Assembly: GCA_024072375.1 (NCBI GenBank)
Contig: CP099617.1
Location: 3,789,001-3,853,000, forward strand
DNA length: 64,000 nucleotides
Direction: 5' to 3'
Source: Sphingomonadaceae bacterium OTU29LAMAA1
GTDB lineage: Bacteria > Pseudomonadota > Alphaproteobacteria > Sphingomonadales > Sphingomonadaceae
Notes under the pieces: model-generated
Database searches by the model: none
Told to the model about the DNA's origin: nothing
Seen by the model: the letters and a program-made list of their open reading frames with translations, nothing else
Translations under genes and position numbers: made by a program
Shown here: positions 49,769-59,622 of the stretch, piece after piece
Position numbering within the stretch: position 1 is the stretch's first letter
How the letters are laid out: every line of letters begins with the position of its first letter

Positions 49769-51541
49769 ATGAACGTGCCACGTCGGATCTGGTTTGGCCT
49801 GCTCGCGGCGGCGGTGATCGCCGCATTGCTGGCGATCGGGAACCGCTGGGTCGACACATCGGCACGTGCGGCCGCGGATCGCAATGCGCTGGCCCTGGCG
49901 CGCACCCATCGGGGCCTGCTCGAAAGCGAATTGCAGAAGTTCCGGCTGCTCCCGCTGGTGCTCGCCGAATACCCCGACGTCGCTTCTGCCATCGGCGGCA
50001 GCGATCCCGCCGCGGTGGGCCGGCTCGACCGCACGCTGGCATCGCTCGCGGCACGTACCGACGCCGCTGTCCTCTATGCGATCGACGCGAAAGGACGCGC
50101 GCGCGCCGCTAGCAATTGGCAGCAACCCACGAGCTTCGTCGGACAGGATTATACCTTTCGCCGCTATTTCACCGAGGCGATGGCGCGTGGCGGTTCGGAG
50201 CTGTTTGCGCTCGGGTCGGTTAGCGGCCGGCCAGGCCTGTATCTCGCGCGGCGGATCGACCGGGGTGGACGCAAGCTGGGAGTGATCGTCGTCAAGGTCG
50301 AGTTCGACCGGCTGGAACGTGAATGGGCGCGATCGCCCGGCGCGACGATCGTCGCAGACCGGCTCGGTCTGGTGCTGATCACCAGCGTGCCGGGCTGGCG
50401 GTTCCATCCCACCCGCCCACTCGATCCCCGCACGTTCGCGACGATGCGACGATCGCGCCAGTTCGGTGCGATGCTGTCGGCCGACGCCGCCTTTACGCGA
50501 GACGGGCGCGACGTGGTGATACCGGGCCGGCGGGGAACCGAACGCTTCCGGCTCGCGATGCTGACGGCGCCGCTCGCGGGCGCCACGCTGATGCATCTGT
50601 CCCCCCTTGCGCCGCCGCTCGCCGCCGCGCGGTCGCAGGCGTTGTCACTGGGGTTTGCACTGCTGCTGATCCTCGGCCTGTCCGGCGGGATCGGCCTGCG
50701 GGCGGCGGAGCGGCGACGCCTGCAACGCCGGGCGCGCGTAGCACTGGAGGAAGAGGTGATCCGCCGGACCGCCGAGTTGCGCGATGCCAACGCCAGACTG
50801 GTGATCGAATCCGAGGAGCGCGCCGGCGCGGACCGGCGGTTCCGTGCCGCGCGCGAGGAACTGGCGCAGGCGAACCGGCTGGGATCGCTGGGCCAGATCA
50901 CTGCCGGCGTAGCGCATGAGATCAACCAGCCGCTCGCCGCGATCCGCACTTTCGCCGAGAACGGCTCGAGGTTGCTGGACCGCGGTGCACCCGATCTGGC
51001 GAGGGAAAATCTGGGGCGGATCGTCGGCCTGACCGAACGCATCGGCACGATCACCGGCGAACTGCGCGCCTTCGCACGCCGCCGCACGCCATCGCGCGGG
51101 ACGCCGACCCTCGGTTCGGCAATCGATGGCACGATGCTGCTGATCGGCGATCGCGCCCGGCCAGTCGTGGTGGACGACATTGCGGCGGAGACGCGTGCAT
51201 TGTGTGTCGACGGCGACCGTATCCGGCTGGAGCAGATCCTCGTCAACCTGATCCAGAACGCGCTGGATGCGGTTGCAGGCCGGCCCGACGCGCGGGTGAC
51301 GCTGTCGGCGGAGCGGCAGGGGGCTAAGCGATTGCTGGTCCGCATCGCCGATAACGGTCCCGGGGTCGATGCCAGTCTGGACGACACGCTGTTCACCCCG
51401 TTCGCATCGGCCAAACCCGAAGGGCTCGGGCTTGGCCTTGCCATCGCCCGCGACATCGCGCGCGAATTCGGTGGCGAGCTCGCGCTCGTCGAGACCGCCG
51501 GGCAGGGCGCGGTGTTCAAACTGACGTTGTCGATCGCATGA
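49769..51541 (+). CDS. DctB-like sensor histidine kinase
   Basis: This 590-residue kinase has TM1 (about 8-25), a large periplasmic double-Cache-like sensor (30-285, with FVGQDYTFRRYFTEAMARG), TM2 (about 290-312), a coiled linker, and His383 in GVAHEINQPLAAIR. An ATPase domain with NLIQNALDAVAG and GLGLGLAIARDIA completes it. This matches the DctB group that senses C4-dicarboxylates. No dicarboxylate transporter is nearby. Its stop overlaps the start of the response regulator. Confidence 0.88.
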   Translation: MNVPRRIWFGLLAAAVIAALLAIGNRWVDTSARAAADRNALALARTHRGLLESELQKFRLLPLVLAEYPDVASAIGGSDPAAVGRLDRTLASLAARTDAAVLYAIDAKGRARAASNWQQPTSFVGQDYTFRRYFTEAMARGGSELFALGSVSGRPGLYLARRIDRGGRKLGVIVVKVEFDRLEREWARSPGATIVADRLGLVLITSVPGWRFHPTRPLDPRTFATMRRSRQFGAMLSADAAFTRDGRDVVIPGRRGTERFRLAMLTAPLAGATLMHLSPLAPPLAAARSQALSLGFALLLILGLSGGIGLRAAERRRLQRRARVALEEEVIRRTAELRDANARLVIESEERAGADRRFRAAREELAQANRLGSLGQITAGVAHEINQPLAAIRTFAENGSRLLDRGAPDLARENLGRIVGLTERIGTITGELRAFARRRTPSRGTPTLGSAIDGTMLLIGDRARPVVVDDIAAETRALCVDGDRIRLEQILVNLIQNALDAVAGRPDARVTLSAERQGAKRLLVRIADNGPGVDASLDDTLFTPFASAKPEGLGLGLAIARDIAREFGGELALVETAGQGAVFKLTLSIA

Positions 51542-52884
51542 CGGCCGTCGCCGATCAGACCGTCTACTTCGTCGAGGACGACGACGCCCTGCGCTTTGCG
51601 ACGACGCAGGCGCTTGAGCTCGCCGGATTGACCGTGCGCGCCTTCGCCGGGGCGGAAGCGGCACTGGCGGCGATTACGCCCGATCTCGACGGCGTCGTCG
51701 TGTCCGATATCCGGATGCCGCGCATGGACGGACTGCAGTTGCTCGCCCGCCTCCGGGACATCGACCGGGATCTGCCGGTGATCCTCATTACCGGGCATGG
51801 CGACGTGCCGATGGCGGTCTCGGCGCTGCGCGATGGCGCATGGGATTTCCTGACCAAGCCGTTCGCGACCGATCACCTGATCGCGACGGTCAGCCGCGCG
51901 CTGGAGCGGCGCGGGTTGCTGGTGGAGAACCGCCGGCTGCGCGCGGCGGCGGCGGCAGGCGAGGCGGAAAGCCCGTTGATCGGCGACAGTGCGGCGCTGG
52001 TGCAATTGCGTGCCACGATCCGTCAGCTGGCGCAGGCGGACGTCGACGTTCTGGTGGAGGGAGAGACAGGGACCGGCAAGGAGCTGGCGGCATTGATGCT
52101 GCATCGGCTGGGGCCGCGCCGGTCGCGCCCGTTCATGGCGGCGCATTGCGCGGCATTGACCGACGAGAATGCCGGGATCGAGCTGTTCGGCCATGCGGCG
52201 GACAGCGTGCCGCATACCCGGCTGGCGCGGACCGGCACGATCGCGTTGTCCAGCGGCGGCACGTTGCTGCTCGACGAGGTCGGCGATCTGGCGCCGGCCA
52301 GCCAGGCCGCACTGTTGCGCGTGATCGAGGAGCGCGAGGTGCAGCCGATCGGTGCTGCGCGCGCGGAGGCGCTCAACCTTCGCGTCGTCGCGACCAGCAG
52401 CGTCGATCTAGCGAAGGCGGTGCAGGACGGCCGGTTCCGTGGCGACCTGTATCACCGTTTCGCCGCGACGCGCCTGCACATTCCGCCGTTGCGCGAGCGC
52501 GAACACGACCGGATGATCCTGTTCGTCGCCTTCGTCGATCAGGCGCGCGATCAGCTGGCGCAACCGGATTACGTCATCGACGAGGCGGACCGCCGCCACG
52601 TCCTGACGCATCACTGGCCGGGGAACGTCCGCGAATTGCGCAACTATGCGTTCGATCGCGTCCTGAGCTTCGGCGGCGCGGCGGCGGGCGATGCCGGCAT
52701 CCGCGACCTGCCGACCCGCGTCGCCGATTTCGAGGCCGCGACGATTGTCGACGCCCTGCGCGCCTGCGGCGGCAACGTCGTGCGGGCGGTTGACGTGCTC
52801 GGCATCCCGCGCAAGACGCTATACTACAAGCTCACACGCTACGGCATCGATCCCGACGCGTTCCGATCGTCGACGCGGTCATAG
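51538..52884 (+). CDS. NtrC/DctD-type response regulator lacking GAFTGA
   Basis: This 448-residue regulator has a receiver (Asp57 in SDIRMPRMDG, Lys107 in TKPF), an AAA+ domain with Walker A GETGTGKE (175-182) and Walker B LLLDEV (243-248), and a Fis-type helix-turn-helix near the C-terminus (GNVVRAVDVLGIPRKTLYYKL). At the place of the sigma-54-contacting loop GAFTGA it reads ADSVPHT (221-227). It may therefore not activate sigma-54. It is coupled to the DctB-like kinase by a four-base overlap. Confidence 0.88.
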   Translation: MTAVADQTVYFVEDDDALRFATTQALELAGLTVRAFAGAEAALAAITPDLDGVVVSDIRMPRMDGLQLLARLRDIDRDLPVILITGHGDVPMAVSALRDGAWDFLTKPFATDHLIATVSRALERRGLLVENRRLRAAAAAGEAESPLIGDSAALVQLRATIRQLAQADVDVLVEGETGTGKELAALMLHRLGPRRSRPFMAAHCAALTDENAGIELFGHAADSVPHTRLARTGTIALSSGGTLLLDEVGDLAPASQAALLRVIEEREVQPIGAARAEALNLRVVATSSVDLAKAVQDGRFRGDLYHRFAATRLHIPPLREREHDRMILFVAFVDQARDQLAQPDYVIDEADRRHVLTHHWPGNVRELRNYAFDRVLSFGGAAAGDAGIRDLPTRVADFEAATIVDALRACGGNVVRAVDVLGIPRKTLYYKLTRYGIDPDAFRSSTRS

Positions 52885-52972: not shown

Positions 52973-53611
52973 TTACGCTGGAACCCGCGCCTCTGCGCGC
53001 AGGACGTCGATCTCCCGGTCGACAATCGCGATCAGCGATGTGATCAGCTGATCTGTCGGAACGTGCGGTCGAACCAGCCGATGGTGCATCAGCCCGAGGC
53101 TCATCGTCAGGATCGTATCGGCGAGCGTTGCCCGCCGCTCCGCCAGATGGTCGCCTGGCGCGAGCATCTCGACCGCTTTCAGCATCTGCGCACGGACATC
53201 CTCGTGGATGACATTGAAGATATTGGCGATCCGTGTGTTACGGGCGGCTTCCGCCACGATCTCCGCGAACAATTGCTCGCCGTCCTCGTCGTCGTCGTCG
53301 GGCTGAACAAACTGATGCAGCCAGTCGCGAACCTGCTGGTCATCGCCCTGCTGGATAGCGAGTCGTAGCGAATCAGCGGCCATGAACGTGCGGCAATCGG
53401 CGTTGACGATCGCAGCGACGATATCCTCCTTGGCGGAAAAATCCCGATACAGCTGGCCAACCGCGACACCCGATTCCCTGGAAATCTGGGCGATCCCGGT
53501 CGCGTGAAATCCGTTTGCGATGAATAACTTACGTGCTGCGTCGATGACGAGCTGGCGACGCATCTCCAGCTTGTTTTTTGACGCACCGCAACAAATTTCC
53601 GATCCGATCAT
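52973..53611 (-). CDS. TetR-family regulator of the RND efflux operon
   Basis: This 212-residue protein has an N-terminal helix-turn-helix (TGIAQISRESGVAVGQLYRDFSAKEDIV, about 38-66) and a ligand-binding domain with an acidic run (PDDDDEDGE). It is divergent from the adaptor gene of the efflux operon, with a 20-bp palindrome between them, the usual layout of AcrR/TtgR-type local repressors. The inducing compounds are unknown. Confidence 0.88.
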   Translation of the reverse strand: MIGSEICCGASKNKLEMRRQLVIDAARKLFIANGFHATGIAQISRESGVAVGQLYRDFSAKEDIVAAIVNADCRTFMAADSLRLAIQQGDDQQVRDWLHQFVQPDDDDEDGEQLFAEIVAEAARNTRIANIFNVIHEDVRAQMLKAVEMLAPGDHLAERRATLADTILTMSLGLMHHRLVRPHVPTDQLITSLIAIVDREIDVLRAEARVPA

Positions 53612-53666
53612 TCCGTCCTCGTCCCGGCGAGCCTTGACGCCAATTCACAAGAGGTAGTAGCAGGGC

Positions 53667-53686
53667 GTGAGTGATCGATCACTCAC
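53667..53686. promoter_or_regulatory. Perfect 20-bp operator-like palindrome
   Basis: GTGAGTGATCGATCACTCAC is a perfect 20-base inverted repeat in the 99-base gap between the divergent TetR gene and the RND operon. It is followed by AATTTTATCA that could hold a -10 region for the efflux genes. Its size and position are those of a TetR-family operator. The binding protein is inferred from context. Confidence 0.75.
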
Positions 53687-53710
53687 AATTTTATCAGCGG
53701 ACATTTTGGC

Positions 53711-54904
53711 ATGGCGAATAAGCGACACGGAGTGGCGGTGCTCGCGTTGGCACTGGCTCTGGCGGCGTGCGGGGGCGGCAACGAGCAGCAACAGCAGGCG
53801 CCGCAGGGCCCGCCCAGCGTTGGTTATGTCGTTGTTCGCCCGCAGGCGGTGACGCTCACCAACGAGCTACCCGGCCGCACCACCGCGTTCGAAACCTCCG
53901 AAGTACGCCCGCAGGTCAACGGTCTTGTACTGGACCGGTTGTTCGTCGAGGGCGATGTCGTCCGCAAGGGCCAGCCTTTGTACCGGATCGACCCGTCGCC
54001 GTATCAGGCGCAGGTCGCCAGCGCCCGCGCGGCGCTGGCGCGTGCGCGTGCCAGCATCGCCTCCAGCGCGGCGCTGGCCCGCCGCTACGGCGAGTTGGTC
54101 AAGATCAACGCGATCTCACGCCAGGATCTCGAAAACGCACAGACGACGGCGCAACAGGCGCAGGCGGATGTGGCCGCGCAGCAGGCGGCGCTGCGTACCG
54201 CGCAGATCGATCTTGCGCGCACCACCATCCGCGCGCCGATCACCGGCCGCATCGGCCGCTCGGTCTTCACCACCGGTGCGCTGGTGTCCGCCGCGCAGAC
54301 CGATGCGCTCGCGACGATCCAGCGGATCGACCCGATCTACGTCGATATCCAGCAGTCGAGCGCCGACCTGCTCAAGCTGCGCCAGCAGATCATGAACGGC
54401 CAGCTGACGCGCGACGGCAATGCGCCGGTCAAGCTGAAGCTGGAGGACGGCAGCGATTACGGTCCGCAGGGGACGCTGCGCTTCGCCGACGTCACCGTCG
54501 ATCCGACGACCGGCTCGCAGGTCATCCGTGCGCTGTTCCCCAATCCCAACGGCTTGCTGCTGCCGGGCATGTTCGTCCGCGCCTCGCTGGCGCAGGGAAC
54601 GGATCAGAATGCGATCCTGGTACCGCAGCGCGCGGTGACGCGTGACGAAAAGGGCAATGCGACCGTGATGGTCATCGGGGCGGACAACAAGGTGCAGCCG
54701 CGCGTGCTCCAGACCGGACGGACGATCGGCGACAATTGGCTCGTCACCGGCGGTCTGAAGGCGGGCGACAAGGTGATCGTCGAGGGCGGCATGATGCTGC
54801 GCCCCGGCATGGCCGTGCAGGGCAAGCCGTGGAACCCCAACGCGCCCGCCGCCGGAGCCCAGCCGGGCAACGGCGCCGGTGCACCCGCAGCGCAGGCGAA
54901 GTAA
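53711..54904 (+). CDS. RND efflux periplasmic adaptor (AcrA/MexA family)
   Basis: This 397-residue membrane-fusion protein has a lipoprotein signal (MANKRHGVAVLALALALAAC, modified Cys20). A lipoyl half-motif (LFVEGDVVRKGQPLYRIDPSPY) precedes a coiled-coil hairpin (about 100-160), and a second lipoyl half follows (TTIRAPITGRIGRSVFTTGALV). It links the inner-membrane pump and the outer-membrane channel encoded just downstream. A glycine- and alanine-rich C-terminal tail closes it. Confidence 0.93.
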   Translation: MANKRHGVAVLALALALAACGGGNEQQQQAPQGPPSVGYVVVRPQAVTLTNELPGRTTAFETSEVRPQVNGLVLDRLFVEGDVVRKGQPLYRIDPSPYQAQVASARAALARARASIASSAALARRYGELVKINAISRQDLENAQTTAQQAQADVAAQQAALRTAQIDLARTTIRAPITGRIGRSVFTTGALVSAAQTDALATIQRIDPIYVDIQQSSADLLKLRQQIMNGQLTRDGNAPVKLKLEDGSDYGPQGTLRFADVTVDPTTGSQVIRALFPNPNGLLLPGMFVRASLAQGTDQNAILVPQRAVTRDEKGNATVMVIGADNKVQPRVLQTGRTIGDNWLVTGGLKAGDKVIVEGGMMLRPGMAVQGKPWNPNAPAAGAQPGNGAGAPAAQAK

Positions 54905-54910
54905 CCCCAG

Positions 54911-58114
<3,204 letters not shown>

Positions 58115-58119
58115 GTGTG

Positions 58120-59622
58120 ATGAATAGTAAATGTGTCCTCGGCCTGCTCGCGGCCACGGCGCTCGCCGGCTGCAACCTGGCGCCGAAGTATGTACGCCCG
58201 GTCGGCGCGGTCCCGGCGGCGCTGCCGCAGGGCGGCGTCTATCCGGCGGCGGCGACCGACGCGCCCGACGTGACGAAGATCGGCTGGAGGACGTTTTTCA
58301 CGGACGAGCGATTGCGCGACACGATCGCGCTGGGGCTCGAAAACAACCGCGATCTGCGCGTCGCCGCGGCGAACGTATTGCAGGCTCGGGCACAATATCG
58401 TGTTTCGCGCGCCGATCTGGTGCCGTCGACCACGGTGTCCGGATCGGGAACCTACACCAATAACATCCAGGGTGCGGCCGGTGCGCTGGGCGGTGCGGCT
58501 GGTGGCGGTACATCCGGGGGTGGTGCTGGAGCCGGTGCCGGGGCGGGCGGCGGCGGCGCCGGCGTTGGAACCGGCGTAGGCGGGGCATCGTCGAACCTGG
58601 AATTCTATTCCGTCAATGCCGGCTTTTCGGCGTTCGAGCTCGACCTGTTCGGGCGGGTGCGCAACCTGAACCGCGCGGCTTTGGAGCAGTATTTCGCGAC
58701 GGAAGAGGCGCAACGATCAACGCGGATCAGCCTGATCGCGGAGATTGCGACGGCCTGGCTGACGCTGGCGTCGGATCAGGATCAGCTGCGTATTTCGCAG
58801 GATTCGCTGAAGTCGTTCGAACAGTCGCTGGAGCTGACGCGGGCGCAGTTCCGCATCGGCGTAGCGTCTGAACTGGAAGCGCGGCAGGCTGAGACGACCT
58901 ACCAGACGGCGCGCAACGATATCGCGGTGTTGAAGACGCGGGTTGCGCGGGACAAGAACGCGCTCGACCTGCTGGTCGGCACGTCCGTCGGCCCCGAACT
59001 GCTGCCGCAGGGGCTGGGTAATGGCGATGCCGCGTTGCAGGTGCTGCCGGCAGGCGTCGCATCCGACGTGCTGCTGCGGCGGCCGGACGTGTTGCAGGCC
59101 GAGCATCAGCTGATCGCACAGAACGCCAATATCGGTGCGGCGCGCGCAGCCCTGTTTCCGCGCATCTCGCTGACAGCGACGTTGGGTACGATCAGCACGG
59201 CGTTGAGCGGGTTGTTCTCGGGCGGCAGCTTCACCTACACCGGAGCGCCTTCGGTTTCGCTGCCGCTGTTCGATGGCGGACGCCTGCGCGGCAACGTGGA
59301 CGTCGCACGGGCGCAACAGCAGTCCGCGGTCGCGACCTATGAGAAGACGGTGCAAACCGCGTTCCGCGAGGTTGCGGATGCGCTGGCGCAGCGCGGCACG
59401 ATCGACGAGCAGATCGCCGCACAGACGGCCCGGGCGAATGCGGCCGACGTCGCGTTCCGGATTTCCGATGCACGATACCGGGCGGGGGTGGATTCCTTCC
59501 TCACCACACTCGACTCGCAACGCAACCTCTACACGGCGCAGCAGCAGCTGGTGACGACGCGACTTTCGCGGGGGAGCAATCTGGTCGAACTGTATCGGTC
59601 ACTGGGTGGCGGGCTGGAGTGA
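58120..59622 (+). CDS. Outer-membrane efflux channel (OprM/NodT family) with Gly-rich insertion
   Basis: This 500-residue channel is the third part of the tripartite pump. It has a lipoprotein signal with Cys18 in LAGCNLAPKYVRP and two helical-barrel repeats. The ATG at 58120 is chosen. GTGs at 58111 and 58117 are also possible, and GGGAG sits seven bases before 58117. Between the first two beta strands, residues 117-157 are nearly all Gly and Ala, with a GAGAGAGGGG run absent from typical family members. Its 3' end overlaps the convergent glycosyltransferase by 24 bases. Confidence 0.9.
   Translation: MNSKCVLGLLAATALAGCNLAPKYVRPVGAVPAALPQGGVYPAAATDAPDVTKIGWRTFFTDERLRDTIALGLENNRDLRVAAANVLQARAQYRVSRADLVPSTTVSGSGTYTNNIQGAAGALGGAAGGGTSGGGAGAGAGAGGGGAGVGTGVGGASSNLEFYSVNAGFSAFELDLFGRVRNLNRAALEQYFATEEAQRSTRISLIAEIATAWLTLASDQDQLRISQDSLKSFEQSLELTRAQFRIGVASELEARQAETTYQTARNDIAVLKTRVARDKNALDLLVGTSVGPELLPQGLGNGDAALQVLPAGVASDVLLRRPDVLQAEHQLIAQNANIGAARAALFPRISLTATLGTISTALSGLFSGGSFTYTGAPSVSLPLFDGGRLRGNVDVARAQQQSAVATYEKTVQTAFREVADALAQRGTIDEQIAAQTARANAADVAFRISDARYRAGVDSFLTTLDSQRNLYTAQQQLVTTRLSRGSNLVELYRSLGGGLE

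Follow-up and report, generated by a model that had tools for sequence, protein, structure and literature searches.

How does a DctD-type response regulator work when GAFTGA, the motif that its homologues carry in loop L1, is missing? Activators of this class without GAFTGA have so far been described singly, case by case. In the window (the whole stretch of 64,000 nucleotides of Sphingomonadaceae DNA analysed here), a preliminary description had pointed out such a protein, with AADSVPHT following ELFGH where GAFTGA belongs, and had treated it as a single odd one. The features of the regulator and of its partner kinase, with window positions, are as follows.

49769..51541, + strand: DctB-type sensor histidine kinase, 590 aa, with putative dCache sensor region, HisKA and HATPase_c
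51538..52884, + strand: DctD-type response regulator without GAFTGA, 448 aa (ORF, domain profiles, tree)
51706..51708, + strand: D57 of the receiver, predicted from homology as the phosphorylated aspartate, present in 55/55 clade members
52060..52083, + strand: Walker A GETGTGKE, aa 175-182, intact
52180..52194, + strand: ELFGH, conserved lead-in to loop L1, aa 215-219
52195..52230, + strand: replacement loop AADSVPHTRLAR, aa 220-231 (alignment, pN/pS)
52264..52281, + strand: Walker B LLLDEV, aa 243-248, intact
52435..52461, + strand: arginine-finger segment FRGDLYHRF, aa 300-308, intact
52720..52842, + strand: Fis-type HTH, aa 395-435 (domain profile)
52825..52827, + strand: Y430 of PRKTLYYK, Asp in Y-D-K homologues (operator covariation, TGTGCG to TGTGCA)

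The regulator, its loop and its relatives

The translation of the ORF at 51538-52884 reads ...GIELFGHAADSVPHTRLARTGTIALSSGGTLLLDEV... around the loop, and AADSVPHT makes up residues 220-227 (52195-52218), in place of GAFTGA. A gapless alignment with the GAFTGA-bearing homologue L138 (GHEAGAFTGAQKKRIG against GHAADSVPHTRLARTG; ELFGH-AADSVPHT-RLARTG against ELFGH-EAGAFTGA-QKKRIG) bears out the original reading and shows that residues 222-227 occupy the GAFTGA position of homologues; GAFTGA is found nowhere else in the 448 residues. A profile search recovered the receiver, the AAA+ domain (Sigma54_activat) and the Fis-type HTH which, with GETGTGKE and LLLDEV intact, agrees with the earlier statement that the Walker motifs and the DNA-binding domain remain; GNVREL is intact as well. 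The predicted structure (mean pLDDT 87.7, from 29 sequences) has the usual fold of the class, and its best fold matches include NtrX, NtrC1 and the FleQ central domain. The start of the regulator gene overlaps the stop of the kinase gene by four bases (51538 and 51541). The kinase scores above the cut-off for HATPase_c and HisKA, reaches 43.8 bits for dCache_1 against a cut-off of 45, and contains the motifs HEINQPL, NLIQNA, DNGPGV and GLGLGL.

We searched the own genome for AAA+ family members and found nine strong matches, of 13 in all. Five carry GAFTGA (L001-L005), one has GAFTDA in its place (L006, C2:3018226), and one has an NtrX-like deletion (L007); the remaining two, both without GAFTGA, are the window regulator and a 68% identical paralogue whose loop reads ELFGHAANTMPHT. 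The check for rpoN proposed in the preliminary description was run, and the genome encodes one copy. Loss of rpoN is therefore not the cause of the missing GAFTGA, and it is ruled out more widely by the presence of rpoN in 50/50 genomes checked, each of which has a relative of the regulator (that of G178 lies outside the clade described below).

A relative of the window regulator was found in 37/249 family genomes (E <= 1e-70). We built a tree of 88 rows with the loop columns excluded and four other activators as outgroup, in which rows were named DctD from operator and dctA linkage, with no named reference sequence. The relatives group into a single 55-row clade (SH-aLRT 98), nested within the GAFTGA-bearing DctD of Alphaproteobacteria; this position, together with the Rhizobium operator carried by the relatives' loci, upholds the DctD-type assignment. 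The clade consists of Sphingomonadaceae plus one row (L139) from another alphaproteobacterial family, and two Sphingomonadaceae rows (L060, L061) fall outside it, in a GAFPGA group. The proposed alignment of orthologues gave GAFTGA in 0/55 clade members, so that a sequence error, the alternative raised at the outset, fails: orthologues and paralogue agree at the loop, and the window regulator is, by these alignments, neither an error nor a lone oddity.

Intermediate loops occur (NAFPGA/GAFPGA in L032 and L054, GAFAGA in L063; others are deleted) and look like steps of decay. Passages of PMC3162934 had already noted that deviant members of this class tend to have Pro in place of the Thr. The 28 other alphaproteobacterial DctD-like rows comprise 19 with GAFTGA, four with GAFPGA, four with a deleted loop and L139, already counted among the 55. 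The presence or absence of GAFTGA needs four changes on the tree, and the motif has therefore been lost in other lineages too. GAFPGA or deleted loops were also seen in other alphaproteobacterial DctD-like regulators (L180, L183, L191; L187-L190; L294, L295), two of them from Brevundimonas records; those in the tree are separate losses. In the named-genome set, GAFTGA occurs only in L333 and L334, both from Rokubacteria. A different replacement loop, GSDLIDRxxGKLG, is found in L271-L291 (mostly Sphingopyxis), alike in most Sphingopyxis loci, and may be a second conserved loop type.

We measured pN/pS along the gene in 12-codon windows. In 27 genus sequences, FGHAADSVPHTR has the lowest value of 437 such windows (0.069; lowest Walker A window 0.080), in a scan that omits L229 (changed loop), L257 (deleted loop) and two near-duplicates, an omission that favours conservation. 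With all 31 rows, FGHAADSVPHTR is still lowest (0.085, Walker A 0.086). This stretch takes in the old FGH as well as the new loop, and taken by itself the loop, AADSVPHTRLAR, comes 13th in the scan of 27 rows and 19th in that of 31. These values show that, within the window's subclade, the replacement loop is under strong constraint and is not junk.

The functional residues of the protein have been kept to different degrees. The receiver Asp is kept in 55/55 clade members and 19/19 GAFTGA rows and Walker A in 51/55 against 18/19, whereas the first arginine finger is kept in 33/55 against 19/19 and the Walker B Glu in 25/55 against 19/19, being replaced in 30/55 clade members and in 4/7 window-type sequences. 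In the AAA+ domain, clade members average 0.46 identity and GAFTGA DctD 0.62; for the receiver the values are 0.55 and 0.50. Since the Walker B Glu is so often replaced and AAA+ identity is down, much of the family can apparently do without ATP hydrolysis.

Promoters and operators of dctA

The 68% paralogue has a dctA gene adjoining its dctBD, as do 44/51 family neighbourhoods (divergent and near), whereas dctA is absent from beside the window pair and from six orthologous loci (G722, G659, G839, G783, G652 and G016). The stretch directly downstream of the window regulator (52973-59622) holds a TetR gene with acrA-acrB running divergently from it, together with an outer-membrane efflux gene, and the G016 orthologue is flanked by a similar gene order. 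In 21/41 dctA-linked neighbourhoods (L074, L076-L113) a cluster 3 gene near dctA reads, from its translation, as a TonB-dependent outer-membrane receptor, and others of this set carry hydrolase-like or MFS-transporter-like genes; perhaps these form a route for a dicarboxylate-bearing compound.

For the comparison of promoters we took, from 80 neighbourhoods, the 52 loci with dctA divergent and near (L097 was omitted as too far), and rechecked the loop state of all of them: seven have GAFTGA (one as GSFTGA) and 45 do not. A -24/-12 site scoring at least 9/10 precedes dctA in 7/7 GAFTGA loci (six have TGGCAC-N5-TTGC at 10/10, one scores 9/10) and in 0/45 of the others. The Fisher P over the 52 loci (7.5e-9) overstates the case, because the 45 loci largely share one loss event. 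At the same threshold, no site was found in 24 genus loci (four of which repeat earlier ones) or in eight orphan dctA promoters, and one was found in 62 loci of named genomes (L317, 9/10); when a positive locus is shuffled, about 1% of the resulting sequences reach 9, and this single hit therefore matches chance. A scan of 25 outgroup neighbourhoods gave sigma-54 sites in 9/17 GAFTGA, 0/3 GAFPGA, 1/4 deleted-loop and 0/1 ASG-type loci, but carries little weight, since its filter on predicted gene starts missed five GAFTGA loci known to have the site. Across the 52 loci compared, then, the promoter has changed along with the regulator, with no -24/-12 site where GAFTGA is missing.

The operators, in contrast to the promoter, are retained. 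Reading the dctA intergenic regions directly, we found an inverted repeat, TGTGCG-N6-CGCACA, that fits the Rhizobium DctD site TGTGCGgaaatCCGCACA given in a passage of PMC11077940. At least two operators at >=9/12 are present in 7/7 GAFTGA loci and in 48/65 other loci (15 have one and two have none). The commonest spacings in GAFTGA loci are 32 and 34 bp (three each); in loci without GAFTGA, 32 bp leads with 32 pairs, followed by 31 bp with 10, so that, by these matches, DctD operators are kept in both groups, mostly paired 31-34 bp apart. Scanning with the IHF consensus, we found an IHF-like core in 6/7 GAFTGA loci and 12/65 others (shuffles 1.2%), a difference that is suggestive only.

The operator also varies with the protein. 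A recognition helix with Y-Y-K/R for Y-D-K goes with the form TGTGCA-N6-TGCACA: 10/10 Y-Y rows fit this A-type better, while 38/40 Y-D/Y-E rows fit the TGTGCG form, or G-type, better (L095 ties and L101 is without a clear operator; L088 and L106, whose helix was misread, are omitted). The named genomes repeat the pattern, with 33/33 Y-Y rows A-type and 22 Y-D rows divided into 14 G-type, eight ties and no A-type. These counts weigh less because related rows inherit both their helix type and their operator type; even so, they tie the proteins to their sites.

Both own-genome copies, the window regulator and the paralogue, have Y-Y-K. G-type operators are not above chance in the own genome (253 matches per strand at two mismatches against 257 for the control; four against five for a fuller pattern at three mismatches) or in the 64,000-nt window (42 matches at <=3 mismatches, shuffle mean 68), and no A-type site within one mismatch lies in the window. 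At their own start, window-type pairs have a best operator match of only 9/12. Genome-wide, TGTGCA-N6-TGCACA is matched with at most one mismatch at five sites (control 3). Of these, two precede dctA genes: one is between dctB and dctA of the paralogue, and another is 187 bp before an orphan dctA that sits at ~1.72 Mb of the same contig, with a malic enzyme gene nearby (names from reading translations). The other three do not precede dctA.

An orphan dctA with a TGTGCA operator is found in 8/8 genomes, namely seven with a window-type pair, the own genome included, and G642. In G642 no window-type pair was found, and the paralogue can therefore also be a partner of this gene. At C4:1136244-1138548 the same genome has a kinase of the dctA-linked type that is split in two, the pieces showing 90% and 89% identity to the own-genome paralogue; next to it lies an open frame of 199 aa with 53% identity to the DctA query. 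With this reservation about the partner, the most likely target of the window pair is the orphan dctA at ~1.72 Mb, as operator and helix type suggest.

Elements resembling RpoD promoters stand at regular distances from these operators. In 8/8 orphan dctA loci, TTG[CT]C[GT]-N18-CATNNT starts 94-96 nt after the operator (shuffles 0.15%), and most of the sequence between the two is not conserved. In dctA-linked loci, scanned without four repeats (L229, L253, L254, L255), CTGGNN-N17-TANRRT occurs in 11/65 (shuffles 0.19%), seven of the 11 being near relatives; it lies 76-77 nt from the dctA-proximal operator in four loci, 108 nt (76 + 32) from the distal operator in six, and at a distance of 65 nt in one (L077). 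The shuffle rates flatter both patterns, because these were first seen by eye in the scored sequences.

Probable action on the RpoD holoenzyme and its alternatives

Absence of GAFTGA throughout the clade, no -24/-12 site, kept operators, covariation of helix and operator, and RpoD-like elements at a fixed distance were observed directly. On this basis we think it probable that a DctB-DctD system for C4-dicarboxylates has gone off sigma-54 and works with the RpoD holoenzyme at dctA, most likely as an activator. The counts behind this reading are not independent, since a single event accounts for most of the 45 losses, and common ancestry for the helix and operator types. In the family, DctB senses C4-dicarboxylates; here it would likewise sense them and phosphorylate DctD at D57, after which phospho-DctD would bind the dctA operators, at least some 100 bp ahead of the predicted transcription start. 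Bound DctD would then act on RpoD holoenzyme at a promoter that has replaced the old -24/-12 site, most likely activating it, with ATP binding probably kept for assembly. What speaks for activation is that the sites are far upstream and clear of the promoter-like elements, and that much of the ancestral sigma-54 layout is kept. More tentatively, the whole sigma-54 enhancer system may have moved, with paired operators, IHF-like site and promoter position kept, the promoter rewritten, and L1 turned into a new conserved contact, FGHAADSVxHTRLxR; should that doubtful extension hold, the contact would perhaps be with RpoD or with the polymerase alpha subunit.

The preliminary description had suggested action on sigma-70 promoters or, alternatively, repression. 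The former gains indirect support from predicted targets that have RpoD-like elements at a fixed operator distance and no -24/-12 site; the latter is less likely. If the protein is a repressor or autoregulator under the control of phosphorylation, its binding would turn off dctBD and perhaps also dctA, the latter being run by a constitutive promoter. Several dctA-linked loci (L077 and L086 among them) do have the distal operator only a few bases away from where dctB probably starts, and TyrR, which is without GAFTGA, can repress. Passages of PMC10274813 report the same for Caulobacter NtrC at some promoters. Nevertheless, the operators remain paired and are placed, like those of GAFTGA loci, far ahead of the dctA promoter without overlapping it; the orphan dctA has an operator with no dctB beside it, at a constant 94-96 nt from the promoter-like element; and window-type pairs are without a good operator at their own start (<=9/12). 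We therefore regard repression as unlikely, although not negligibly so. Somewhat less probable still is that the window pair controls a target other than dctA, such as the neighbouring efflux genes. It has no adjoining dctA, TetR genes lie on both sides and acrAB downstream, but the window holds neither G-type operators above chance nor an A-type site within one mismatch, and the TGTGCA-type operator predicted from the helix precedes the orphan dctA in 7/7 genomes with a window-type pair. In four of these genomes (G722, G783, G652, G016), moreover, a kinase search (E <= 1e-90) gave one match each, of the window type.

The state of the AAA+ domain bears on two further readings. The domain might be decaying, its loop functionless debris and the protein on its way to a plain receiver-HTH regulator. 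This would suit the parts of the clade in which the loop is deleted and Walker B and arginine finger are gone, the drop in AAA+ identity that the receiver does not share, and the changed or deleted loops of the own-genome paralogue and L257. The pN/pS minimum at FGHAADSVPHTR in the window's subclade and the retention of Walker A argue against it, and we hold decay to be improbable. Alternatively, the protein could be a partner or a brake in mixed rings with a GAFTGA-bearing activator, still acting at sigma-54 promoters. The own genome has rpoN and five GAFTGA activators to offer, yet the predicted target dctA promoters of the clade are without -24/-12 sites, and the Walker B Glu and first arginine finger, needed by a working ring, are lost in many members, which makes mixed rings very improbable indeed.

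The view of the window regulator as a single odd protein does not stand, then: the absence of GAFTGA is clade-wide and matched by a change of promoter, and the loop that took its place is conserved within the window's subclade. One clade in which protein and promoter can be compared, with joint losses, retained parts and the intermediates GAFPGA and GAFAGA, makes the question of how a regulator switches polymerase testable in harmless bacteria of soil and water. Automatic annotation of these Sphingomonadaceae DctD proteins as 'sigma-54-dependent regulator' or the like is probably incorrect.

Comparison with known systems

DctD of Sinorhizobium and Rhizobium shares with the window regulator and its family the domain order and the DctB-type partner kinase and, with the family, the divergent dctA and the operator TGTGCGgaaatCCGCACA at more than one site; the best receiver-only PDB chains for the window regulator are DctD, 1qkk and 1l5y. 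Unlike Rhizobium DctD, the window regulator and its family are without GAFTGA and without a -24/-12 site at dctA, ATPase residues are eroding in the family, and the window pair lies away from dctA. Our searches of an open-access library turned up no report of clade-wide GAFTGA loss in DctD.

NtrX has the receiver, AAA+ domain, HTH, alphaproteobacterial origin and absence of GAFTGA in common with the window regulator, and Brucella NtrX (5m7o) is the best fold match of its model. The window regulator is nevertheless not NtrX, as it scores 292.7 bits with the NCBIfam NtrX equivalog against a cut-off of 600; L007, a separate gene of the own genome, we take to be NtrX-like from its resemblance. Nor is it TyrR, since a receiver is present and the TyrR score is 159.9 bits against a cut-off of 576. 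TyrR and HupR are GAFTGA-deviant regulators of this class, and VpsR is described as regulating sigma-70 promoters. All three have, like the window regulator, lost or broken GAFTGA, but they differ in having other input domains or belonging to other orthologous groups.

The nearest precedent is NtrC of R. capsulatus, which belongs, however, to a different orthologous group; its sites reportedly lie more than 100 bp upstream, and ATP binding reportedly suffices. Passages of PMC10274813 describe this protein as an NtrC-class response regulator that is without GAFTGA and activates through sigma-70, and describe Caulobacter NtrC as being without GAFTGA, regulating sigma-70-dependent promoters and needing ATP binding and hydrolysis. 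Caulobacter NtrC has an eight-residue deletion and again belongs to a different group from the window regulator. In R. capsulatus NtrC, too, the motif is deleted, whereas the window's subclade has a new conserved loop instead, and the change seen here is clade-wide and goes with the loss of the sigma-54 promoter.
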